Shown: piece after piece, positions 4,105 through 63,445 of the stretch
Position numbering within the stretch: position 1 is the first letter of the stretch
How the letters are laid out: the number at the start of each line of letters is the position of its first letter
Source of the DNA: Agapetus fuscipes
Lineage: Eukaryota; Arthropoda; Insecta; Trichoptera; Glossosomatidae
Assembly (NCBI GenBank): GCA_951799405.1
Contig: OX637335.1
Coordinates: 20,154,342 to 20,218,341 of the forward strand
Reading direction: 5' to 3'
DNA length: 64,000 nucleotides
Notes under the pieces: generated by a model
What the model saw: only the letters and a program-made list of their open reading frames with translations
Database searches by the model: none
What the model was told of the DNA's origin: nothing
Translations under genes and position numbers: made by a program

Positions 4105-5053
4105 CTAATCTAATCTAATCTAATCTAATCTAAGCTGCAAAGATATATATCATTTAAGATTTATACTAAATGCATTCCCACAAGCAGATATGTATAATTT
4201 CGCGCTAACACATGCCGCATGTGGACCTACAATATAAAAACCCAATCTCAAATGAACATAAGCCTTGCAACTCTTGCCGTCCTTCCCTGAAACAGGGGTG
4301 ACATTGGCAAAGTGAACCAATTTTTATATTATGGGTGGTCAGCCGCATAACAACCTATAAGTCAAGGAACATACATGACAAATTACATTTTTTAAAATCA
4401 AAGAATAAAAATAACAATATATACATGGACATAAAAAACTAAATCATAAAACCAAATTCACTTTAACAAACCCTAGCCGCCAACATCACAGATCAACCGC
4501 CATTTCTTTCTATCCTTGCATACTTCTTTCATTTCCTCCAGAGTCATAACCTTCTTCATACAAGCTCTTCTTTTATTATGACTCTGGATATTCCATTCAT
4601 TCGCAATTTCGGATATTTGGTCCATCCATACCTTTCTCGGTCTTCCTCTACCACGACATCCATCTATTCTACCAACATATACTTTCTTCGTCAGTCTTTC
4701 CTCATTCATTCTCTCCATATGCCCAAACCATCTTAACAAACTTCTTTTAATCTTCACTTTCACACTTTCTTTTGCACCACATTCTTTTCTTACAAAATCA
4801 TTCCTCACCCTGTCACTCCGTTTTTTCCCAATCATACTTCTTAGAAAGTCCATTTCAACAGTATGGACTTTACTAATTTCACTTTCATTCACCGTCCAGG
4901 CCTCGCTTCCATACATCAAGGTGGGTAAAAGTATGCCACTGCGTACCGCCAATCGAGCATTTTTAGAAATGTTTTGATTTTTGGCGATACAAGCTGTGGC
5001 ACCCAGTACACACCTGCCCTTCATTACTCTTCTTTCAAGTTCACCTGTCATTC
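4105..5053 (-). mobile_element. 5'-truncated LINE-A inserted in the pogo transposase
   Basis: The copy is flanked by a 10-bp TSD TTCTTAAAGT (4095-4104 and 5054-5063). On its own strand it runs from mid-ORF at 5053, through the stop at about 4473, the T-repeat 3' UTR (about 4385 down to 4140) and a tail of about five TTAGA units ending at 4105. The sharp TSD and clean tail indicate target-primed reverse transcription. Confidence 0.88.
4473..5053 (-). CDS. LINE-A reverse transcriptase, C-terminal ~190 codons
   Basis: The frame is open from the truncation point to the stop and lacks the RT catalytic core. It carries the post-RT region: LPTLMYGSEAWTVNESEISK, the LLRWFGHMERMNEERLTKKV segment, the basic GRGRPRKVWMDQ and the terminal EMKEVCKDRKKWRLICDVGG. 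Over this overlap the protein differs from the 53721-54806 copy at only a few residues (VRKECGAKES versus VREECGARES), so both derive from a recently active source. A Met-initiated reading that starts further upstream in the flanking transposon is an artefact of the junction. Confidence 0.85.
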
Positions 5054-5668
5054 TTCTTAAAGTGCTCCAGAAAAAAGGAGAAATCATCTTCTTGCATCCA
5101 TCCAGACCCATTAGCAGTCCCTACTGATCCAAGAGGGCCATCCCGTATAAAATGCTCTTGAAACCTTTTACGTGGAAATATAAACATTGGCGGTATATAA
5201 TTACCTATTGCGTTACCAACCAAATCCATCGTCACAAGAGTTCCCCGCTCTGCTGAGATCATGGCACTGACCTGTTTTTCACCACGTCTTGCGATTATCC
5301 TATCAGGTTTTTGGACAGTTGTTATTCCAGTCTCATCTACATTCCAAATATCTTTGGCATCAAGAACATACTTGCTCAAAACAGATTTATAACTATCAAA
5401 AAATATGCTCACGTTTGTCTTATTGAAGCTTGTCGCGCGAGCAATGCTCATAGGCTGGGGTAACCTTAACGACAGGTAACGATGGCGCTTCATAAAAAGT
5501 TGGAGCCATACCTCCCCTGCCATTTCACGTTCGTCCCAGGACACAGGGAACTTCTTATTATGACGTTTCGCTAACTTGTAGGCCAATTCTCTTACTTCCT
5601 TCGTTTTAAGCCCATAATTAGTGGCGGCACAAGTTAACAGGTCACATAATATGTTTTCTTCTTCAGCC
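5054..5668 (-). pseudogene. pogo-like transposase, central piece with first catalytic Asp
   Basis: The minus-strand translation runs from EEENILCDLLTCAATNYGLK through LAYKLAKRHNKKFPVSWDE, the Tc5/CENP-B-type helix-turn-helix WLQLFMKRHRYLSLRLPQP, and into the DDE domain at DIWNVDETGITTVQKPDRII. The Asp of NVDETG lies near 5335-5337. The piece ends at SFFLEHFKK, where LINE-A inserted. It stays open for about 200 codons, so decay is mild apart from the insertions. Confidence 0.85.
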
Positions 5669-5671
5669 GTA

Positions 5672-5890
5672 AAGACTGTGATGATGATGATGATGATGGA
5701 TGATTTCTTTCCTGTGGCGCCATTAAATGGTCCAGGACCATCTCAAGGGCGCCATGGCTTCTGGAGAAAAGTAGTGTCTTCAGTTCCTTTCTGAAGGTGG
5801 TGGTAGGCTGGTTCGCGCGAACACCGATGGGCAAATTGTTCCAGGCAACCGGCTACTGGTTGGGACTGGAGTAGCCAACAGAAGGTGGTG
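5672..5890 (-). mobile_element. 3' end of a CR1/Jockey-like LINE inserted in the transposase gene
   Basis: The reverse complement reads AWNNLPIGVRANQPTTTFRK then ELKTLLFSRSHGALEM, the typical C-terminus of CR1/L2/Jockey-class RT proteins. It ends in a (ATC)n run (5678-5700), which looks like a 3' microsatellite tail. It separates the DNA-binding N-terminus of the pogo transposase (5895-6075) from its middle. I could not define a convincing TSD. Confidence 0.65.
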
Positions 5891-6912: not shown

Positions 6913-8235
6913 TTCTTCTTCTTCTTGTGCCACTTCTAACGAAGATCGGCGATCATCATAGCTATTTTGAGTTTTGATGCTGCGGCTCGAAATAGGGACT
7001 TGGTGCTTCTGCCGAACCACTGTCGCAGGTTCTTCAGCCACGATGTCCTTCGGCGTCCCTGAGATCTTCTCCCCTCAATCTTACCCTGAATGATAAGATG
7101 AAGGAGACGGTACTTCTCATTTCTCATAATGTGACCGAAGTACATTAGCTTTCTCTGCTTAATGGTAGGCAGGAGCTCCTTTGTAGTGCGCATTCGTTGA
7201 AGGACTTCTTCATTGGTGACTCGATCACGCCAAGAGATCCGAAGCATTTTTCGGTATAAACACATCTCGAATGCTTCAATACGTCTCTCCAGTGCCTGCG
7301 TGAGAGTCCATCCCTCCATACCATACAGAGCGATTGGGAAAACGTAGCACCTCACTATGCGCTTCCGGAGTTCAAGGCTTAAATTTCGGCACAACAGTAA
7401 TTTGCTCATTTTAGCGAAGACATTTCGGGCTTGCTCTAGTCTGCTTCTGACTTCTTGACACATGTCCCACTTTTCGTTGACCACACATCCCAGGTACCTG
7501 TAACTAGTGCATCTTTCAATGCTTTCGCCATCTAGTTCTACATGTACGGAGGCGTTTGTGTTTCTGCTGATAACCATGACCTTGGTCTTCTTAAAGTTAA
7601 TGTTAATGCCAGCTTCTTTGCTAGCGACATTTATTCTGGTCAACAATGTTTGCAGATCCGCCTGAGTGTCAGCGAGTAGGACTGTGTCATCGGCATACCG
7701 CAGGTTGTTTACCAGCTGCCCGTTGACAACAATGCCTTCTCTAGCCTCATGAAGTGCTTGCGCCATGATCCTTTCTGAATATAGGTTAAAAAGTGTTGGT
7801 GACAGTACGCATCCCTGTCTAACTCCTCTTCTGATGGGTATTTGTCTGGTCTCTGAACTCTCTACAAGCACTGAAGCAGTTTGCTGCCAATATATATTAG
7901 CAATAATGCGAGTGTTTTTATCGTCTATCCCAATGTCTTTCAGTATACTGATCAGCTTGTCGTGTCTCACTCTGTCAAAGGCCTTTTCGTAGTCAATAAA
8001 GCAAACATAAACATCTTTATTCATATCGAGACAACGTTGCACTAAAACCTGTAATCCAAACAGAGCATCTCGTGTGCCAAAGCCGTTCCTAAAACCAAAC
8101 TGTTCGGCTGATAACTGTTGGTCACACTGTTGGTATATTCTCTTTAGTATAATTTTCAGGAAAGATTTCATCACATGACTCATTAAGCTTATTGTTCGAT
8201 GTTCTTCACATTTTTTAGCATTAATATTCTTTGGT
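6913..8235 (-). mobile_element. LINE-B, 5'-truncated non-LTR retrotransposon
   Basis: The insertion is flanked by the exact 11-bp duplication AAAGTCTCATC. Its 3' end is a short (GAA)n tail at 6913-6926. Coding sequence upstream of the first Met (CEEHRTISLMSHVMK) shows truncation inside the RT gene rather than a natural start. Confidence 0.9.
6936..8183 (-). CDS. LINE-B reverse transcriptase, 415 codons, N-terminally truncated
   Basis: An uninterrupted RT frame. Visible blocks: FGFRNGFGTRDALF (residues 29-42); catalytic FIDYEKAFD (62-70, first Asp); RRGVRQGCVLSPTLFN (118-133); YADDTVLL (163-170, the Asp pair); KKTKVMVI and YRYLGCVV in the thumb region. A C-terminal domain follows: LYGMEGWTLTQALERRIEAF, QRKLMYFGHIMRNEKYRLLH and GRRRTSWLKNLRQWF. 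The endonuclease and N-terminal RT parts are lost, so the copy cannot be autonomous although its catalytic residues are intact. Met-8183 is internal. I place it in the RTE/BovB-like group by general resemblance. Relatives of its 3' end lie at 42345-42545 and 56690-57040. Confidence 0.88.
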   Translation of the reverse strand: MSHVMKSFLKIILKRIYQQCDQQLSAEQFGFRNGFGTRDALFGLQVLVQRCLDMNKDVYVCFIDYEKAFDRVRHDKLISILKDIGIDDKNTRIIANIYWQQTASVLVESSETRQIPIRRGVRQGCVLSPTLFNLYSERIMAQALHEAREGIVVNGQLVNNLRYADDTVLLADTQADLQTLLTRINVASKEAGININFKKTKVMVISRNTNASVHVELDGESIERCTSYRYLGCVVNEKWDMCQEVRSRLEQARNVFAKMSKLLLCRNLSLELRKRIVRCYVFPIALYGMEGWTLTQALERRIEAFEMCLYRKMLRISWRDRVTNEEVLQRMRTTKELLPTIKQRKLMYFGHIMRNEKYRLLHLIIQGKIEGRRSQGRRRTSWLKNLRQWFGRSTKSLFRAAASKLKIAMMIADLR

Positions 8236-8399
8236 AAAGTCTCATCACCACGGTCATTCTTACCTACCGCGTTTTGGTATTATTTGTATGAAAACTAATC
8301 AGCTGCCATCTTGAATTGTCAGGTCTTCATATAAAAATGCATCATTAGTTTGTCAAAGCGTGGGCTCAACGGACGACTAAAATGTCTAAGAATAGCACC

Positions 8400-8744: not shown

Positions 8745-9045
8745 ATACGGATATTATTATTTATTGATTTAAAAAATGTAATTTGTCATGTATGTTCCTT
8801 GACTTATAGGTTGGTATGCGGCTGACCACCCATGCTGTTCAAATGGTTCACTTTTCCAATGTCACCCCTGTCACAGGGAAGGTTGGCAAGAGTTGCAGGG
8901 TGTATGTCCATTTGAGATTTGGTTTTTATGTTGTAGGTTCACATGCGGATGTGCAAGCGCGAATTTGTACGTGTATGCTTGTGAAAATGCATGTAATGTG
9001 AATTTCCATTGTAACATATCTTTGTAATTTAGATTAGATTAGATA
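8745..9045 (+). repeat. T-repeat with extra upstream LINE-A 3' UTR
   Basis: The segment TTTGTCATGTATGTTCCTTG shared with 54890-54908 precedes the T-repeat start. This copy is therefore a truncated LINE-A 3' end rather than a minimal unit. The tail is TTTAGATTAGATTAGATAAG. Confidence 0.85.
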
Positions 9046-10539: not shown

Positions 10540-10735
10540 TCTATCTCGATCTATCTACAAAGATATCTATGCTACAAAGATACATTACATTTCAGATTCA
10601 TATTAAAAGCATTTACATAAACAGACACGTATAATTTTGCGCTTACACATGCCGCATATGAACTTACAACATAAAAACACAATCTCAAATGAACACAAGC
10701 CTTGCAACTCTTGTCGTCCTTCCCTGAAACAGTTT
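10540..10735 (-). repeat. T-repeat, 5'-truncated
   Basis: It contains CTTGCAACTCTTGTCGTCCT and ends at TTCCCTGAAACAG. The 5' third, including the CTTGACTTATAGG start, is missing. Confidence 0.75.
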
Positions 10736-12293: not shown

Positions 12294-12556
12294 CGTGATT
12301 CCTTTACTTATAGGTCCGTATGAGGCTGACCACCCATACTGTAAAAAATGGTTCACTTTGCCAATGTCACCCCTGTTTTAGAGAAGGTCGGCAAGAGTTG
12401 CAGGGCTTATGTTCATTTGAGATTGGGTTTTTATATTGTTGGTCCACATCCGGCATGTGCTCGCGCGAACTAATACGTTTCAGCTTGTAGGAATGCATTT
12501 GATATGAATCTCAAATGATATATATCTTTCCAACTTAAATTTTTATTTAGATTAGA
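12294..12556 (+). repeat. T-repeat
   Basis: Starts TTCCTTTACTTATAGG and includes GGTTCACTTTGCCAATGTCA and TGCTCGCGCGAAC. The tail TTTAGATTAGATT is short. Confidence 0.85.
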
Positions 12557-13108: not shown

Positions 13109-13378
13109 ATCGTTTGTACCTTGACTTATAGGTTGGTATGCGGCTGACCACCCATACTGTAAAAAATGGTTCACTTTGCCAATGTCACCCCTGTTTCAGG
13201 GAAGGGCGGCAAGAGTTGCAGAGCTTATGTTCATTTGAGATTGGATTTTTATATTGTAGGTCCACATGCGGTATGTGTTAGCGCGAAATTATACATGTCT
13301 GCTTGTGGGAATGCATTTAATATAAATCTTACATGATATATATCTTTGCAGCTTATATTAGATTAGATTAGATTAGAT
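13109..13378 (+). repeat. T-repeat with (TTAGA)n tail
   Basis: Begins about seven bases before CTTGACTTATAGG and ends in four TTAGA-type units. TCATCATC-like sequence on both sides (about 13096 and 13381) may be a TSD but lies in a simple repeat. Confidence 0.88.
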
Positions 13379-13577: not shown

Positions 13578-13832
13578 AACTTTAATCTAAGTTGAAAAGA
13601 TATATATTACATTTAAGATTCTTATTATATGCATTTTCCTAAGCAGATACGTATAAGTTCGCGCTCATACATGCCGCATGTGGACTTACAACATAAAACC
13701 CGAATCACAAATGAACATAAAGCCTAAAACTCTTGCCGACCTTCCCTGAAACAGGGGGTTTGTATTGGCAAAGTTAACAATGTTTACAGCATTAGTTGTC
13801 AGCCTCATACCAACCTATTAGTGAAAGAACCA
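13578..13832 (-). repeat. T-repeat, diverged
   Basis: The 5' end on its own strand reads CTTTCACTAATAGG. It is full-length but has more substitutions than the copy at 13109. Confidence 0.8.
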
Positions 13833-17344: not shown

Positions 17345-17840
17345 ACCAGTGCTTGTTTGGCTTATCTACCATTTGATTCAAACATGTCCTTCTAATGAAA
17401 AATTCTTAACAATCACAATCTGAGCTAAGAAAAAAACGTAAAACACGACAATGTCTAAATCTAAATCTAAGTTGACAAGATATTTATCATTTGAGATTCA
17501 TATTAAATGCATTCCCACAAGCAGACACGTATAATTTCGCGCTCACACATGCCATGCCGCATGTGGACCTACAATATAAAAACCCAATCTCAAATGAACA
17601 TAAGCCCTGCAACTATTGCCGAACTTCCCTGAAATAGGGGTGACATTGGCAAAGTGAACCATTTTTTACAGTATGGGTGGTCCGCCTCATACCAACCTAT
17701 AAGTCAAGGAATGTGAATGACAATGTGAGAGCTGTTTTCAATATTTTTAAAATTAATTTACAGTTTTCATTAGACGCATTGGTACAGTACACATACAAGC
17801 ATTGCTCGTGTGAAATTACCTCTGATGGGTATGAGACAAA
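17345..17840 (+). repeat. Repeat family G, split by a T-repeat
   Basis: The left part 17345-17454 (AAAACGTAAAACACGACAATGT) and the right part 17719-17840 (GACAATGTGAGAGCTG, GGTACAGTACACAT, AAATTACCTCTGATGG) align to the continuous copy at 15295-15500. Confidence 0.6.
17455..17718 (-). mobile_element. Solo T-repeat with its own 8-bp TSD
   Basis: The 264-bp insertion is bounded by GACAATGT at 17447-17454 and 17719-17726, inside repeat family G. It contains only the T-repeat and its (TAAAT/TTAGA)-type tail, with no LINE-A coding sequence. The GCATGC-like word near the middle is duplicated (CATGCCATGCCGCATG). Confidence 0.88.
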
Positions 17841-27317: not shown

Positions 27318-27575
27318 CACCTTGACTTATAGGTTGGTATGCGGCTGGCCACCCATGCTGTAGAATATGGTTCACTTTGCCAATGTCTCCACTGTTTCAG
27401 GGAAGGTCGGCAAGAGTTGCAGGGTGTATGTTCATTTTAGATTCGGGTTATTATATTGTAAGTCCACATGCCGAATGTTTAAGCGCGAACTTATTCGTGT
27501 CTGCTTGTGAAAATGCATATAATGTGAACCCTAAATTTAACTTACATATATTTGCAACTTACTTAGATTAGCACG
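27318..27575 (+). repeat. T-repeat
   Basis: Starts at CACCTTGACTTATAGG and ends TTGCAACTTACTTAGATTAG. Full-length, with one substitution-rich stretch in the middle. Confidence 0.87.
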
Positions 27576-29350: not shown

Positions 29351-29945
29351 ACTTAAATGTTATTTATCACTCGTATTCCTTGACTTATAGGTTGGTATGA
29401 GGTTGACCACCCATACTGTAAAAAATGTTTCACTTTGCCAATGTCACCCCTGTTTCAGGGAATGTCGGCAAGAGTTGCAGGGCTTATGTTCATTTGAGGT
29501 TTGGATTTTATTTGTAAGTACACAATCAGCATTTGTAAGCGCGAACTACACGTGTTTGTTTGTGGGCATACATCTGAGAGCTTTGAATGAATATATCCTC
29601 GCAACTTAGATTTTAGATTTTTAGATAATCGGGGACATTGATTTTTTTTATAAGCCTTACCAAATAATGTATATGCATGAGTTCTTTTTTTCTCATGTCT
29701 CACTTTTTTGTCATGCCCTTTATGGTGTTCTCTGTTTTGTGATGTTTTGTCATGTGATGTTTTTTTCATTTGACGTCTATGGTATGTTATGTTTCAGATA
29801 TTCTATTTTTTGTCATGTGATGTTTTGTCATTGTGATGTACTTTCCTGTGATATTTTCTCATAGGGATGTTTTGTTATGTGTCGTTCTGTCGTGTCGTGC
29901 TGTTATGTGTCGTTTTGCCACTGTGTTGTTTTATCATGGAACCGT
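28487..29945. mobile_element. Foldback F3 with inserted and duplicated interior
   Basis: The left arm (28487-28575, repeated at 28965-29050) carries TTAGAACGACACAGTGACA, ACGACACATGACAGAAC and ATCACAT. The right arm (29690-29945) is made of the inverse words TGTGATGTTTTGTCAT, TGTGTCGTTCTGTCGTG and CACTGTGTTGTT. A T-repeat and LINE-A ends sit between the arms. The assignment of both arms to one element is inferred. Confidence 0.5.
29375..29625 (+). repeat. T-repeat following a LINE-A coding end
   Basis: Begins TTCCTTGACTTATAGG and ends GCAACTTAGATTTTAGATTT. It lies about 150 bp after the duplicated MTLDEMKEVCKDRK end, so it is part of a truncated LINE-A. Confidence 0.85.
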
Positions 29946-30184
29946 ACGTGTGTGCTTGCATGTATTACATAAGGGGTGTAGATTTCTGTCGTTATAGAAG
30001 GCAAAGCTTCAGAATTGTATTAAATAATTGTACCCGTACACCGCAAAGCCGGGCTTAATGAACTTTGTGATACCTACCATCAGAATGCACTATGGTCCAC
30101 ATAATAATGTGTAATAAACTCGACACAATAAAAAAAAACCTCGGCTATGTAACGTTACTGTAGTAAATAATGGATTCTTAATCC

Positions 30185-30440
30185 ATAATCGTAAATTGAA
30201 AAGATATATTAACATTTAAAATTCATATTAAATGCATGCCCAAAAAACAAACACGTATAAGTTCGTTCTTACAAATGCAGCATGTGTACCTACCTACTTA
30301 CAAATTAAATTCCAAAACTCGAATGAACATAACCCTGCAACACTTGCCGACTTTCCCTGATATAGGGGTGACATAAGCAAGATGAACCATTTTTTTAAAG
30401 CATGGGTAGCCAGTCTCATACCGACCAACATTACGAAGAA
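30185..30440 (-). repeat. T-repeat, diverged
   Basis: It contains ACACTTGCCGACTTTCCCTG and TGGGTAGCCAGTCTCATACC; the 5' tip is degenerate. Confidence 0.78.
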
Positions 30441-32209: not shown

Positions 32210-32490
32210 CTATAACCTAAGTTGCAAAGTTATGTTGGCATTTTAGGCTAATATTTAATGCATGCCCACAAGTTCATGTAAGTTCGCGCTTGTGAATGTG
32301 TACATGCAAAATAAATTAAAGTTCACACGTGCTAAATGTGTACATGCAAAATAAACTAAACCTCACATGAGCATACACTTTGTGACTCCTGCCGCCTTTC
32401 GTTTAAAACGGGTGGCAGTGAGAAAACGGGATCCACGTTTTTAAAGCATGGGGATCTACCTCATACCAACCTATTAGTCAAGGAACCATC
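32210..32490 (-). repeat. T-repeat, second subfamily, with a small internal duplication
   Basis: The GCATGCCCACA variant of the core is present. A 34-bp segment (GTGTACATGCAAAATAAA) is duplicated at 32298 and 32338. Confidence 0.78.
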
Positions 32491-36896: not shown

Positions 36897-37480
36897 AACG
36901 TAAAAAAAAGTTTTTTGACACCTTGTGCGAAATATACGTAATAACCCGTTGCTTTTAAATCGAAAGAATTTGTAAAATCTGATTGGATTCGCTTTGCCAA
37001 TGTCACCCGTTTTTCAGGAAAGGCCGGCAAAGTTGTAGGGTTTATGTTCATTAGAGGAACCAGAAATAGTTTGTTGACACCTTGTGCGAAATACGGAATA
37101 ACCCGTTGCTTTTAAATCGAAAAAAATTGTAAAATCTGATTGGATTCGCTTTGCCAATGTCACCCGTTTTTTCCGGAAAGTGCTGCAAGAGTTGTAGGGT
37201 TTATGTTCATTTAGAGGAACCAGAACTTTTTTTTTGACACCTCTTGCGTAGTACGGAATAACCCGTTGTTTTTTAAAACGAAGGAATTTGTACAATCTGA
37301 TTGGAGATACATTTGGCGACTGTAACATATTTTTTAGGAAAGGGCGGCAAGAAATGCATGGTTTATGTTGATTAGAGGTTTTGTTTATTTTGGAAGTACA
37401 CATACAGCATGTTAACTTGCACGTTTCTGCTTATGGGCATGCAGTAAAAATACATCTTCAATTTTAATATTTCTTTATAA
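36897..37480 (+). repeat. T-repeat whose core is part of a chimeric ~160-bp tandem array
   Basis: GACACC(T)TTGTGCG recurs at 36917, 37076 and 37236 (steps 159 and 160). Each unit joins a foreign segment (GGAATAACCCGTTGCTTTTA) to the T-repeat core (CGCTTTGCCAATGTCACCCG to TTTATGTTCATTAGAGG). The last unit runs on into a normal T-repeat end (about 37380-37490). Confidence 0.85.
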
Positions 37481-37909
37481 CTAAGATTTAATAATATAGG
37501 CTGTCAAGGTTTGGCCAAGTGACGCCACAATTTTCCTCCGTCTTTCAATGTGTCGAGTTCATTGTTACATTGAATTTTATCAAACATCAGTCTTATTATA
37601 ATTTATCACCGTACCTCTTCACCTATTACCCCTATTACTTTATTTGTATTTGTTATCAAATCTGAAGGGCCAGTGTGTACTGCTCAAATTATACCCACTT
37701 AGCCCAATCAAACAACAAAATGAATACATTCAAACAATTTAAATTGTTTAATTGTACGAAGAGGAACGATCATGCGGGCAATTTGAGATCCAAACAAAAG
37801 GGTTCATAAGACTACTCCCAAAATAAATGTAACCTTTTTTTACATTCATGTAACAAAACAAGTTCGTAAGAAGTGTATATATACAGAAGAAACGGAAGAC
37901 AAATAAAAG

Positions 37910-38739: not shown

Positions 38740-38995
38740 TAATCTAAGTTGCAAAGATAATATATTGACATTCAAGGCTCATATTAAATGCATGCTCTCA
38801 AACAGGCACACGTAAGTTCGCGCTCACACATGCTGCATGCGTACATACAAAACCAAAACGAAACCTCACAAGAATATAAACTTGGCATCTCCTGCTGCCT
38901 TTCCCTGAAACCAGAGTGGCTTTGGAAAAGGTGATCCAAGCTTTACATCATGGGGGGTCAGATTCATATCAACCTATAACCTATAAGTCAAGGAA
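38740..38995 (-). repeat. T-repeat, second subfamily
   Basis: It carries ATGCATGCTCTCAAACAGGC and TCGCGCTCACACATGCTGCA; the 5' tip has a duplicated ACCTATA. Confidence 0.82.
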
Positions 38996-42559: not shown

Positions 42560-42830
42560 CCATCTTCTAATCTAATCTTATCTAAGTTGCAAAGATATAT
42601 GTACCATTGGGGTTTCACATTACATGCATTTTCACAAGAAAACACGTATAAGTTCGCGCTTGTACATGCCGCATGTGAACCTACAACATAAAAACCCAAA
42701 TCTCAAATGAGCATACACCCTGAAACTCTTGCCGACCTTCCCTGAAGCAGAAGTGATATTGGCAAGGTGAACCATTTTCTATAGCGTGGGTGGTCAGCCA
42801 ACTATAACTATAAATCAAGAAACCAAATCT
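42560..42830 (-). repeat. T-repeat
   Basis: Follows the LINE-B end within about 15 bp. It carries AGTTCGCGCTTGTACATGCC and CTCTTGCCGACCTTCCCTGA; tail TCTAATCTAATCTTATC. Confidence 0.85.
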
Positions 42831-43917: not shown

Positions 43918-44672
43918 TGGCGGTGACAGTTTAGAACGGCACAGTGACATAACGACACATTATTATTTATTTCAAAAATAATAATCTATTATCTAAGCTG
44001 CAAAGATATGTTAACATTTAAGGCTCATATTAAATGCATGCCCACAGACAGGCACATGTAGGTTCGCGCCTACACATTTTGCATGCGTGCATACAAATAA
44101 ACAAACCCTCACATGAACATAAACCTAACAACTCCTGCCGCTTTTCCCTGAAACTGGGGTGGCACTGGCAAAAGTGAACCGATTTTTACAGCACATTTAA
44201 TTATTGAAAAAAACACATACAAGACAACATGACAGTTCTAGACCATATTGTTGTAATTTTGACAAAAGGATGTTACAAAAGTAATATAAATCATTATTTT
44301 ATAGAAAAAAAAAGTCAAAACATTATATTGGTATTACTCCATCATAAGTCTTTCTAGCAGAACCTTCCATTCAACCATTAGTCCCTTTATTCTAGTATTA
44401 AATATATCCATATGTGGTGAGGACGACATCAATTCGTTTATGAGCGTGCACATGACATAACAACAAATGACAGAACATCACAATGACAGTACATCACATG
44501 AAAAAACATCACAAACAGAACACACCTAAACGGCACATGAAACGGTTTTGTCTTGTGATGTTTTGTCATTGTGTTGTATTTTCCTGTTATGTTTTCCCAT
44601 GGCTTTGTTTTGTTATGTGATGCTCTGTCATGTGTCGTTTTGTAACTGTGTCGTTCTAACGTGGAACCGATT
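43918..44672. mobile_element. Foldback F3 split by a T-repeat
   Basis: The left arm starts GGTGACAGTTTAGAACGGCA and continues ACAGTGACATAACGACACA. It resumes at 44445-44530 with CATGACATAACAACAAATGA and ACATCACAATGACAG. The right arm (44540-44672) is the inverse: TTGTGATGTTTTGTCATTGT ... TGTCATGTGTCGTTTTGTAA and CTGTGTCGTTCTAACGTGG. Confidence 0.6.
43980..44205 (-). repeat. T-repeat, second subfamily, inside F3
   Basis: It has GCATGCCCACAGACAGGCAC and CAACTCCTGCCGCTTTTCCC; the 5' tip is missing. Confidence 0.8.
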
Positions 44673-48544: not shown

Positions 48545-48805
48545 GATCTAATCTAATCTAAGTTGCAAAAATATGTTACATTGGAGATTCACATTACATG
48601 CATTCTCACAACCAGACATGTACAAGTTCGCGCTTGCACATGCCTCATGTGAACCTACAACATAAAAACCAAATCTCAAATGGACACACACACTGCAACT
48701 CTTGCCGTCCTTCCCTGAAACAGGGGTGACATTGGAAAAGTGAACCATTTTTACAGCATGGGTGGTTAGCCGCGTACCAACCTATAAGTCAAGGAACACA
48801 TACAC
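48545..48805 (-). repeat. T-repeat
   Basis: Full unit with tail TCTAATCTAATC and 5' tip CTTGACTTATAGG; AAGGA occurs just outside the tail. Confidence 0.87.
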
Positions 48806-52199: not shown

Positions 52200-52410
52200 T
52201 GTACCTAATCTAAGTTGCAAAGATGTATTAAATTCAAGATTCATATTGAATGCATTCCCATAAGCAGACACGTGTACGTTCGCGCTTACACATGCCGCAT
52301 GTGGACTATATAAAATAAAATTCGATCATAAGCCCTGCAACTCTTGCCAACCTTCCCTGAAACAGGGGTGATATTGACAAAGTGAACCATGGTTTACATT
52401 TTGCTCAATG
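52200..52410 (-). repeat. T-repeat, 5' tip missing
   Basis: TCTAAGTTGCAAAGATGTAT to GAACCATGGTTTACA; truncated before the CTTGACTTATAGG start. Confidence 0.82.
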
Positions 52411-52965: not shown

Positions 52966-52974
52966 TTTTGATTC

Positions 52975-53223
52975 CTTGACTTATAGGTTGGTATGCGGCT
53001 GACCACCCATGCTGTAGAAAATGGTTCACTTTGCTAATTTCACCCCTGTTTCAGGGAAGGTCGGCAGGAGTTGCAGGATGTATGTTCATTTGAGATTTGG
53101 GTTTTATATTGTAGGTCCACATGCGGCATGTTTAAGCTCGAACGTATACGTGTCTGTTTGTGAAAATGCATATAATGTGAATCTTTAATGTTACATATAT
53201 TTGCAACTTAGATTAGATTAGGC
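52975..53223 (+). mobile_element. Solo T-repeat with 7-bp TSD
   Basis: TTGATTC at 52968-52974 is repeated at 53224-53230. The 249-bp insertion starts exactly at CTTGACTTATAGG and ends TTGCAACTTAGATTAGATTA. No LINE-A coding sequence is included. Confidence 0.85.
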
Positions 53224-53229
53224 TTGATT

Positions 53230-53335
53230 CATTTTTGTAAATACACATGCGCAAACTCACACGTGTCTGCTTGTGAGCTTGCATTAAATATGGGCCTTAA
53301 ATGTCAATATATATTTGCAACTTAGATTCAAGTTT
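53230..53335 (+). repeat. T-repeat 3' fragment
   Basis: GTAAATACACATGCGCAAAC to ATATATTTGCAACTTAGATT. The preceding solo T-repeat is inserted just upstream. Confidence 0.65.
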
Positions 53336-53440
53336 ATTACAGACGACATGAAGTAAAATAGAACCCCCTTTTACACAGACTGAAACTTTAGCTCACTGTG
53401 TGTGTATTAGGTTCTTACACTAAAAAAAAAATATACCTTT

Positions 53441-53695
53441 TTTTTTAAAATAAAGCTATTTTTTGTTTAACGTAGTTTATTTTCACAATAATATTTAATA
53501 TCTCGAGTACTTTCGACCTTCAATATTCAGGCCATTATCAAGAGTGATGTATAAAAAATTTAATTAATAATTTTAAATTTTTTATACATCACTCTTGATA
53601 ATGGCCTGAATATTGAAGGTCGAAAGTACTCGAGATATTAAATATTATTGTGAAAATAAACTACGTTAAACAAAAAATAGCTTTATTTTAAAAAA
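53441..53695. repeat. Near-perfect hairpin, ~123-bp arms
   Basis: 53441-53563 is the reverse complement of 53573-53695 around a 9-base centre. I found no mismatch over the arms checked (for example CTCGAGTACTTTCGACCTTC against GAAGGTCGAAAGTACTCGAG). Confidence 0.9.
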
Positions 53696-53720
53696 ATGAA
53701 TTTTCACTGGACAATTCTCA

Positions 53721-54806
53721 GTGGACAGAGGTATGTTATGGGATGTTTTGAAAGCATACGGAGTGAATGGGGCTCTCCTTGGTGCGGTGCATGCAAACTA
53801 TGAAAATAGTAAGGCATGTGTCCGTATTGATGGTGAGTATAGCGAGTGGTTTGAAGTTTATAAGGGTGTGAGGCAAGGATGTGTGATGAGTCCATGGCTA
53901 TTTAACATAGTTATGGACAAGTGTGTCAGGGATGCTAGACTTAATGATTGTGGATTGATGATAGGAGAGAGCAAAGTGAGTGTTCTACTGTATGCAGATG
54001 ATGCAGTTCTTGTATCTGATTCTGCAGTAGAATTGCAAACAATGCTCTCTAGATTGAATGAAGCTTTGTTAGGTAACCATCTGAAGTTGAATGCAAGTAA
54101 GACGAAAGTATTGATTTTTGAAAGAGATGATGAAAGTATGAATTATGAATTTAAAATTAATGGAATGAATGTTGATGTCGTAAATGAGTTTGTATACCTG
54201 GGAAGTAAGTTTGAAAAAGATGGAAGAATGACCGGTGAATTTGAAAGAAGAGTAATGAAGGGCAGGTGTGTACTGGGTGCCACAGCTTGTATCGCCAAAA
54301 ATCAAAACATATCTAAAAATGCTCGATTGGCGGTACGCAGTGGCATACTTTTACCCACCTTGATGTATGGAAGCGAGGCCTGGACGGTGAATGAAAGTGA
54401 AATTAGTAAAGTCCATACTGTTGAAATGGACTTTCTAAGAAGTATGATTGGGAAAAAACGGAGTGACAGGGTGAGGAATGATTTTGTAAGAGAAGAATGT
54501 GGTGCAAGAGAAAGTGTGAAAGTGAAGATTAAAAGAAGTTTGTTAAGATGGTTTGGGCATATGGAGAGAATGAATGAGGAAAGACTGACGAAGAAAGTAT
54601 ATGTTGGTAGAATAGATGGATGTCGTGGTAGAGGAAGACCGAGAAAGGTATGGATGGACCAAATATCCGAAATTGCGAATGAATGGAATATCCAGAGTCA
54701 TAATAAAAGAAGAGCTTGTATGAAGAAGGTTATGACTCTGGAGGAAATGAAAGAAGTATGTAAGGATAGAAAGAAATGGCGGTTGATCTGTGATGTTGGC
54801 GGCTAG
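53721..54806 (+). CDS. LINE-A reverse transcriptase, 361 codons, N-terminally truncated
   Basis: Non-LTR RT. Blocks seen: GVRQGCVMSPWLFNI (residues 49-63); the catalytic YADD (91-94) in VLLYADDAVLV; LKLNASKTKVLIFE (121-134); and EFVYLGSKF (156-164). The C-terminal domain has LPTLMYGSEAWTVNESE, LLRWFGHMERMN, GRGRPRKVWMDQIS and the final EMKEVCKDRKKWRLICDVGG. The first catalytic Asp block and the endonuclease lie upstream of the truncation; Met-53721 (within VDRGML) is internal, not a true start. The frame is uninterrupted and nearly identical to the 4473-5053 copy. The clade is not assigned with confidence. Confidence 0.88.
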   Translation: MDRGMLWDVLKAYGVNGALLGAVHANYENSKACVRIDGEYSEWFEVYKGVRQGCVMSPWLFNIVMDKCVRDARLNDCGLMIGESKVSVLLYADDAVLVSDSAVELQTMLSRLNEALLGNHLKLNASKTKVLIFERDDESMNYEFKINGMNVDVVNEFVYLGSKFEKDGRMTGEFERRVMKGRCVLGATACIAKNQNISKNARLAVRSGILLPTLMYGSEAWTVNESEISKVHTVEMDFLRSMIGKKRSDRVRNDFVREECGARESVKVKIKRSLLRWFGHMERMNEERLTKKVYVGRIDGCRGRGRPRKVWMDQISEIANEWNIQSHNKRRACMKKVMTLEEMKEVCKDRKKWRLICDVGG

Positions 54807-54894: not shown

Positions 54895-55160
54895 TCATGT
54901 ATGTTCCTTGACTTATAGGTTGTTATGTGGCTGACCACCCATACTGTAAAAAATTGGTTCACTTTGCCAATGTCACCCCTGTTTCAGGGAAGGACGGCAA
55001 GAGTTGCAAGGCTTATGTTCATTTGAGATTGGGTTTTTATATTGTAGGTCCACATGCGGCATGTGTTAGCGCGAAATTATACATGTCTGCTTGTGGGAAT
55101 GCATTTAATATAAATCTTAAATGATATATATCTTTGCAGCTTAGATTAGATTAGATTAGA
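54895..55160 (+). repeat. T-repeat as LINE-A 3' UTR
   Basis: TTCCTTGACTTATAGGTTGT, GGTTCACTTTGCCAATGTCA, GTCCACATGCGGCATGTG and TATATATCTTTGCAGC followed by TTAGATTAGATTAGATTAGA. This ties the solo repeats to the LINE. Confidence 0.9.
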
Positions 55161-57789: not shown

Positions 57790-58005
57790 ATTATGACCAC
57801 CCATACTGTAATAAAAATGATTCACTTTGCCAATGTCACCCCTGTTTAAGCGAAGGTCGGCAAGACTTGTGTTCATTTGAGATTAGGTTTTTATATTGTA
57901 GTTCCACATGAGGCATGTGCTAGCGCGAAATTATACATGTCTGCTTGTGGGAATGCGTTTAATATGAATCTTAAATGATATATATCTTTGCAGGTTAGAT
58001 TTAGA
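57790..58005 (+). repeat. T-repeat lacking its 5' tip
   Basis: Starts at GACCACCCATACTGTAATA and ends ATCTTTGCAGGTTAGATTTAG. GAGTTGCAGGGCTT is deleted in the centre. Confidence 0.8.
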
Positions 58006-58434: not shown

Positions 58435-58810
58435 TCTGTAATCTAAGTTGCTAAGATATATTTGCATTTAAAATTCATATTAAATGCATGCCCACAAACA
58501 GACACGTGTAATTTCACACACAAATGCTACTTGTGTACTTTTTTAAGTCCAAACCTCAAATGAATTTTCCTTAAAACAAGGGCATTGGCAAAGTGAACCA
58601 TTTTTTATAGCATGGGTGGTCAACTTCAAACCAACCTATAAATCAAGCAATACAAATAATAAATAACATTGTAAGTTTAAAAAACAACCAGGCCTTAAAA
58701 TAAGATTTAGGTATACAAAGAAGTCAGAAGGGACATCGATTGCATAAAATTCAAAATTATGAAAGAATAAGCCGCCAACATTACAGATTAGCCGCCATTT
58801 TTTTTTGTGC
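58435..58810 (-). pseudogene. LINE-A 3' end: coding remnant plus T-repeat
   Basis: The complement of 58760-58808 gives KKWRLICNVGG, the last LINE-A codons. After ~100 bp the T-repeat (58655 down to 58435) follows, with a ~45-bp deletion that removes the GCAAGAGTTGCAGGG core. Confidence 0.75.
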
Positions 58811-63254: not shown

Positions 63255-63445
63255 TAATATAAGTTGCAACGATATATTTACATTAAAAATTCATATTAAA
63301 TGCATGCCCACAAACAGACACGTGTAAGTTCCCGTTTACAAATTCTGTATGGGTACTTACAAATAAATTTGTTGACATTGGCAAAGTGAATAACTTTTTA
63401 CAGTTTGGGTGGTCAGCCTCATACCAACTTATAAGTCAAAGAATA
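63255..63445 (-). repeat. T-repeat with central deletion
   Basis: ATAAGTTGCAACGATATATT, ATGCATGCCCACAAACAGAC and GTTGACATTGGCAAAGTGAA; the CAGGGAAGG core is missing. Confidence 0.8.

Follow-up and report, generated by a model that had tools for sequence, protein, structure and literature searches.

The window, a 64-kb stretch of the genome of the trichopteran Agapetus fuscipes, contains a 5'-truncated copy of a LINE, here called LINE-A, whose reverse-transcriptase ORF lies at 53700..54806 on the plus strand (Pfam RVT_1, 6.7e-19). About 100 bp past the stop of this frame begins the last part of its 3' UTR, a 250-bp sequence that we call the T unit (54904..55152, +), which starts with TTCCTTGACTTATAGG and ends in variable (TTAGA)n tails. 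The same unit stands by itself at 52972..53219 (+), with an (AGATT)n tail to about 53223 and no shared upstream DNA. This is the solo copy named in the initial annotation of the window, whose description of a recurrent unit shared with the 3' end of LINE-A is borne out: a profile search of the window finds 33 T matches, or 31 elements once pieces are joined. Directly adjoining the truncated 5' end of LINE-A is a MITE-like inverted repeat (53440-53696) with perfect 63-bp arms (53440-53502 and 53634-53696). Elsewhere in the window, a transposase-like reading frame (5041-5742, -), which we take to resemble pogo/Tigger and which has only a weak unrelated match in Pfam, adjoins a LINE-A fragment, and a second LINE reverse transcriptase (6936-8279, -), about 28% identical to that of LINE-A, seemingly belongs to another clade.

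Complete 5' ends, starting at profile positions 1-3, are found in 16 of the window copies, 6 of which extend into LINE-like DNA and 10 of which are without shared upstream DNA. Besides the unit at 52972, solo units were placed by profile match and upstream comparison at 12299..12541 (+), 13117..13364 (+), 13583..13829 (-), 27318..27569 (+), 38740..38995 (-), and 42574..42822 (-); a further solo unit lies at 17459..17711 (-), and two old ones, each composed of two profile matches, lie at 32213..32485 (-) and, with an internal deletion, at 63255..63443 (-). The unit of LINE-A itself was assigned by profile and LINE comparison. Other units attached to LINE DNA are that of a second LINE-A copy at 4122..4369 (-), with LINE body up to 5056; that of a LINE copy at 29376..29613 (+), with LINE similarity from 29193; that of an old LINE copy at 58439..58650 (-), with a body fragment to 58804; and, by upstream comparison, those at 8795..9040 (+) and 48550..48796 (-), which are preceded by 44 bp of LINE-A and by about 13-15 bp of LINE-like DNA, respectively. 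Profile matches truncated inside T were mapped at 10565..10732 (-), 30183..30426 (-), 43984..44193 (-), 52205..52402 (-), and 57794..58001 (+). At 36982-37488, T fragments occur in side-by-side repeats with similar flanking motifs, as if inside a short tandem array.

The genome comprises 618 Mb in 148 contigs, and the sampled DNA consists of the window and twenty 10-kb stretches (L038-L057), one from each of 20 contigs and all at coordinate 1,000,001, so that the sample is systematic rather than random. The 200 kb of stretches hold 137 T matches covering 24.8 kb, or 12.4%, with all copies counted, and a rough extrapolation from this one coordinate per contig gives some 400,000 T pieces in the genome. 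An exact pattern search of the genome for a non-T base, then G, then TTCCTTGACTTATAGGTTGG returned 3,920 sites. No relative was found in viral contigs and phages, with two 17-mer matches among the viral contigs, and 27 17-mer matches in prokaryote records of genome contigs are regarded as chance.

Solo and LINE-linked copies were told apart by comparing the DNA just upstream of complete 5' ends with LINE-A and with all other copies, under the generous rule that a copy is LINE-linked if its upstream DNA is in common with LINE-A or its subfamilies by chain linkage. Among 104 copies from the window, seven targeted loci (L031-L037), and the twenty stretches, with one duplicate removed, 39 are LINE-linked, 63 share no upstream DNA, and 2 share only a neighbouring T tail. 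A second count, made on the window and stretches with pieces joined and with copies whose 5' end lies <60 bp from an edge left out, gives 164 T copies: 61 solos starting at profile positions 1-4, 33 LINE-linked copies, and 70 copies truncated within T. The stretches alone contain 51, 27, and 56 of these classes, and matches of at least 60 bits contain 56, 33, and 37 (n = 126). Set against a uniform spread of the solos and the 70 truncated copies over T, the peak of 61 has P ~2e-72. The common start that the initial annotation had noticed in many solo copies is thus real, and a flat distribution of 5' ends, the outcome it had set against its own reading, was looked for and is absent from the sampled DNA. 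The truncated copies are skewed toward the 5' part of T, 18 of them starting in the first 20 positions past the peak, and a few solos begin at +3 to +5 or carry 6-11 extra bases ahead of the unit.

At single-base level, position -1 is a purine in 52 and position +1 a T in 55 of the 63 solos, which are of mixed age, and position -2 is like background; the 39 LINE-linked copies have T at -2 in 38 cases and a purine at -1 in 36. Moreover, the -1 base of solos tracks their LINE-linked type (P 0.006 by Fisher test of A against G): solos whose nearest LINE-linked copies carry A show 16 A, 4 G, and 7 C/T, and those whose nearest LINE-linked copies carry G show 14 G, 8 A, and 3 C/T. The cleanest view is offered by a young subfamily, since diverged flanks are unable to mislead there. 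A genome search with the solo L039:5641-5888 as query gave 2,437 candidates, of which the 40 scored all show 98-100% identity, and 36 of these 40, the query included, divide into 18 solo and 18 LINE-linked copies. In 17 of the 18 young solos the -1 base is G, the LINE's own base, and the -2 base is random (A8 T5 G3 C2). One young solo (L083) has 11 bases in common with the LINE, one mismatch included, and could be a copy of slightly greater length, and another (L069) has a LINE match of 5 bases; of the 18 young LINE-linked copies, 10 match along the whole 60 bases compared, and in the other 8 the match breaks off at 19 to 58 bases. Because the solo 5' end is exact to one nucleotide, a flat truncation series is rejected.

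The solos bear the diagnostic bases of the LINE-linked copies of their own subfamily. On a tree of 86 of the 104 units, namely those with 200 or more profile positions covered (53 solo and 33 LINE-linked), the label changes between solo and LINE-linked 23 times versus a shuffled mean of 26.7, and 42 of 500 shuffles are as low. The nearest neighbour is a solo for 33 solos and a LINE-linked copy for 20; for LINE-linked copies, these numbers are 17 and 16. Within the young set, the 16 full copies differ by a mean of 1.5-2.6 bases, with one variant confined to two solos (one being the query) and another common to a solo and a LINE-linked copy. One clade, starred on the tree, is the exception, as it contains five solos and zero LINE-linked copies; four of the five, all except the query, share several variants absent from the 7 LINE-linked copies with which they were compared. 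Some propagation among solos alone, or a LINE subfamily missed by the sampling, may lie behind this clade, and thin sampling of LINE subfamilies is the likelier cause, since its fifth solo is the query, half of whose near-identical copies are LINE-linked. On the whole, the solos appear to arise repeatedly from the contemporary LINE, and with labels intermixed elsewhere on the tree, they do not form a lineage of their own apart from it. The SINE-like passenger proposed in the initial annotation survives in part: the 5' end is indeed a preferred one, and the 3' end in common with a LINE, which is a criterion for SINEs, and the (TTAGA)n tails fit use of the LINE machinery, but an independent SINE lineage is not supported by the number of label changes or by the even division of copies at 98-100% identity.

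Two target-site duplications had likewise been quoted as exact and as enclosing only the unit. Both direct repeats are present, TTGATTC at 52968-52974 and 53224-53230 and GACAATGT at 17447-17454 and 17719-17726, but the former overlaps the T unit's own TTC, and the latter does not enclose the unit alone because 7 extra bases stand between the repeat and the unit; both are near chance, with a mispaired-flank background of 17% for matches of at least 7 bp and 6.3% for at least 8 bp. Near-junction repeats of at least 7 bp occur in 12 of 44 solos versus 6.6% of mispaired flanks, and one of 9 very young solos has an 8-bp match, a length that 2 of 72 mispaired pairs attain, with the others within chance. 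Extra bases at 5' junctions are known from R2 (PMC3414825). The repeats and the variable (TTAGA)n tails are loosely compatible with target-primed reverse transcription.

The partner LINE appears from its predicted proteins to be RTE-like, with an endonuclease and a reverse transcriptase, and RTE is the clade name that we assume for it. One copy (L048) encodes an AP-type endonuclease (Exo_endo_phos, 7.8e-06) and a reverse transcriptase in different frames, and another (L040) has a single 669-aa frame running from the end of the endonuclease through the reverse transcriptase (RVT_1, 2.2e-36). The nearest named matches of the LINE-A protein are lepidopteran, at about 50% identity (Plutella, Phthorimaea, and Parnassius), and its best match is at 86%; one LINE protein match filed under Klebsiella is probably contamination. 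LINE relatives at 64-69% protein identity (L055:5346-7205, -; L041:7543-7875, +; L050:7300-7632, +) have no T match directly at their 3' end, and T may therefore be confined to the LINE-A subgroup.

Within this subgroup, T and the DNA before it show different degrees of conservation. LINE types alpha and beta are 93% identical in coding DNA and 86% in T, and their UTRs before T are 69% identical versus 69.6% for shuffled sequence; for alpha and gamma, the identities are 94.7% in T and 73.9% in the UTR before it, where shuffled sequence averages 69.7% and reaches 81.5% at most. The last 20-45 bases upstream of T retain enough likeness to chain the LINE types together, so that these upstream parts may well be related but diverged, and the only upstream features seen to be kept in LINE-linked copies are a purine, a T, and a purine before TTCC. 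Upstream type alpha is found ahead of T subfamilies I, IIa, and IIb, and type beta ahead of III, yet two copies have mismatched pairings, namely gamma upstream DNA with T-I in L050:67-315 and beta-like upstream DNA with T-IIb in L045:9088-9318. From these mixed pairings, and from T and coding DNA that are alike where upstream UTRs are shuffle-like, T behaves as a conserved module, perhaps an exchangeable one; the mismatch between T and upstream DNA could also come from gene conversion among the numerous T copies.

Three single T sequences fold better than their shuffles (z -4.9, -4.1, and -2.2), and with one T fold mapped on 48 sequences, 90.6% of cells pair versus 36-50% when the fold is slid by 1-3 columns. 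Covariation support for this fold is mixed: the pairs changed on both sides number 5, fewer than the shuffled 8.7, whereas the cells changed on both sides number 33, more than the shuffled 19.4, and the covariation score is 0.113 versus 0.108 in shuffles, 12 of 500 of which reach it. A helix of T bases 1-8 with 81-88, taken from single folds, includes no pair in which both bases change, and a local hairpin competes with it; it is thus given no weight. An Rfam search of T gave no match and no known ribozyme, and a hammerhead or HDV fold was sought by eye and dropped. The microRNA names returned by Rfam come mostly from the inverted repeat at 53440-53696 and have sub-gathering scores, as does one further microRNA match.

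The initial annotation had recommended looking for Pol III promoters and terminators. In 44 full solos, the best matches to A and B boxes do not exceed those of shuffled sequence, and internal T runs are common (T4+ in 40 and T5+ in 27 of the 44), for which reasons T as a Pol III SINE is rejected. T has no Pol III head. ARAGORN finds no tRNA in the window, a negative that counts for little since it also misses a tRNA-like SINE there. An ordinary tRNA-derived SINE with clear A- and B-box consensus does occur in the sampled DNA, e.g. at L040:5518-5766 (-); it exemplifies a head of this type, and its 3' end differs from T; it has 55 matches in 284 kb (the window and L038-L059), 23 of which start at profile positions 1-6. 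Its start is less sharp than that of T, with the consensus G first in 13 of 21 copies examined, and some copies have a shared extra upstream stretch. TATA-, initiator-, and DPE-like strings near the start of T were sighted by eye, and no claim is made for them.

We give about an even chance to a reading in which T serves an RTE-like LINE as its 3' module and retrotransposition often acts on a discrete RNA that derives from the LINE and has a fixed 5' end. T would be the presumed recognition site at which the LINE enzyme starts target-primed reverse transcription, and solo copies would be made repeatedly from the RNA of whichever LINE subfamily is active. Most solo cDNAs end exactly at the purine that immediately precedes TTCCTTGAC. 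This base may be where a discrete short RNA truly begins, through transcription initiated internally at the T-purine step or through cleavage at that step, and the LINE enzyme would copy this RNA to its end. Since the short RNA would come from the LINE and be copied by the LINE enzyme, the solos would be a LINE by-product, not an independent SINE. At the level of sequence, an internal start, a ribozyme of a new type, and host cleavage are indistinguishable here. The more specific proposal, that the LINE 3' UTR yields a separate short 5'-purine RNA that is retrotransposed at about the frequency of the longer LINE RNA, with T as an exchangeable 3' module, is put forward tentatively, at a little short of even chances.

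Much of this evidence also bears on a reverse-transcriptase stop, by which the full LINE RNA would be copied and the enzyme would halt or release at the 5' border of T; we consider this unlikely, though well short of negligible. Solos that track LINE subfamilies and are at most about twice as common as LINE-linked copies (61 vs 33) agree with it, as does a conserved block that ends at the T border (T 86-95% identical and the UTR before it shuffle-like between LINE types), and a precise stop would leave an identical DNA pattern. It sits less easily with an end that is exact to one base in the young solos, or with the three bases before TTCC as the only upstream features seen to be kept; in addition, structure inside T should halt the enzyme before it copies T, not after. 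A defined 5' end of an RNA would account for the one-base precision as well as, or better than, a stop of the enzyme.

It is improbable that T is a self-propagating, SINE-like lineage with an internal promoter of its own, of the Pol II and not the Pol III kind, in which solos breed solos. The exact start at a pyrimidine-purine step would suit a transcription start, and the very high copy number (137 matches in 200 kb), the excess of solos over LINE-linked copies in the stretches (51 vs 27), and the solo-only clade of five would be expected of such a lineage. However, its Pol III form lacks A and B boxes above shuffle level and faces internal T4+ runs in 40 of 44 solos, solo and LINE-linked labels are intermixed on the tree, and even the clade includes a solo whose closest relatives are half LINE-linked.

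Several known elements resemble T in part. The SIDEs, including Persaeus and Zenon (PMC6740152) and the R2 SIDE and R2/R1 SIDE (PMC3414825), are like T in having no Pol III head, in using the LINE 3' recognition RNA, and in having an exact 5' end, made via a ribozyme in R2, but they keep a 5' part (5' UTR or ribozyme), and T has none. That T is itself such an element, with a LINE 5' end joined to a 3' end as in Persaeus or the R2 SIDEs, has very little probability even though SIDEs are known in Lepidoptera (PMC6740152): T is unbroken within the LINE 3' UTR with no 5'-to-3' LINE junction. L048 is the single copy extending into the LINE 5' part, and T has no match there, so that a SIDE assembled from the two LINE ends is ruled out. 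Ordinary 5'-truncated LINE copies are, like T, unbroken with the LINE 3' end and of the same subfamilies, and 70 of the 164 copies are indeed cut at scattered points inside T, but scattered 5' ends are expected of them and 61 copies share one start, which makes random truncation a most improbable source of the solos.

ZenoSINE, Metulj (PMC6685494), Bov-A2, and RTESINE1 (PMC3747384) are short like T and have a 3' end in common with a partner LINE; several such LINE-tailed SINEs have an RTE-type partner, and Metulj is abundant, as T is. These SINEs have a separate head, derived from a tRNA, of unknown origin, or taken from the LINE's own 5' end. T differs from them as a single unbroken part of a LINE 3' UTR; no Pol III signal was found in it, and it forms no clear separate lineage. 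A limited search of the open literature found no paper with wording for LINE-derived or headless SINEs.

The usual view is that a SINE needs to borrow a promoter head. T has no such head, and this 250-bp stretch of LINE 3' UTR, with all copies counted, occupies about an eighth of the sampled DNA. Repeat annotation calls for caution in such a case, as a T-like family may be labelled "SINE" or "unknown" while being neither. If a discrete RNA with the 5' end seen in the solos exists, then the LINE directly makes its own short and abundant competitor. If this is true, it would provide a natural assay of the RNA requirements of the reverse transcriptase, and it would also open a route to the birth of SINEs, in which any promoter could be added to a unit that is already being copied.
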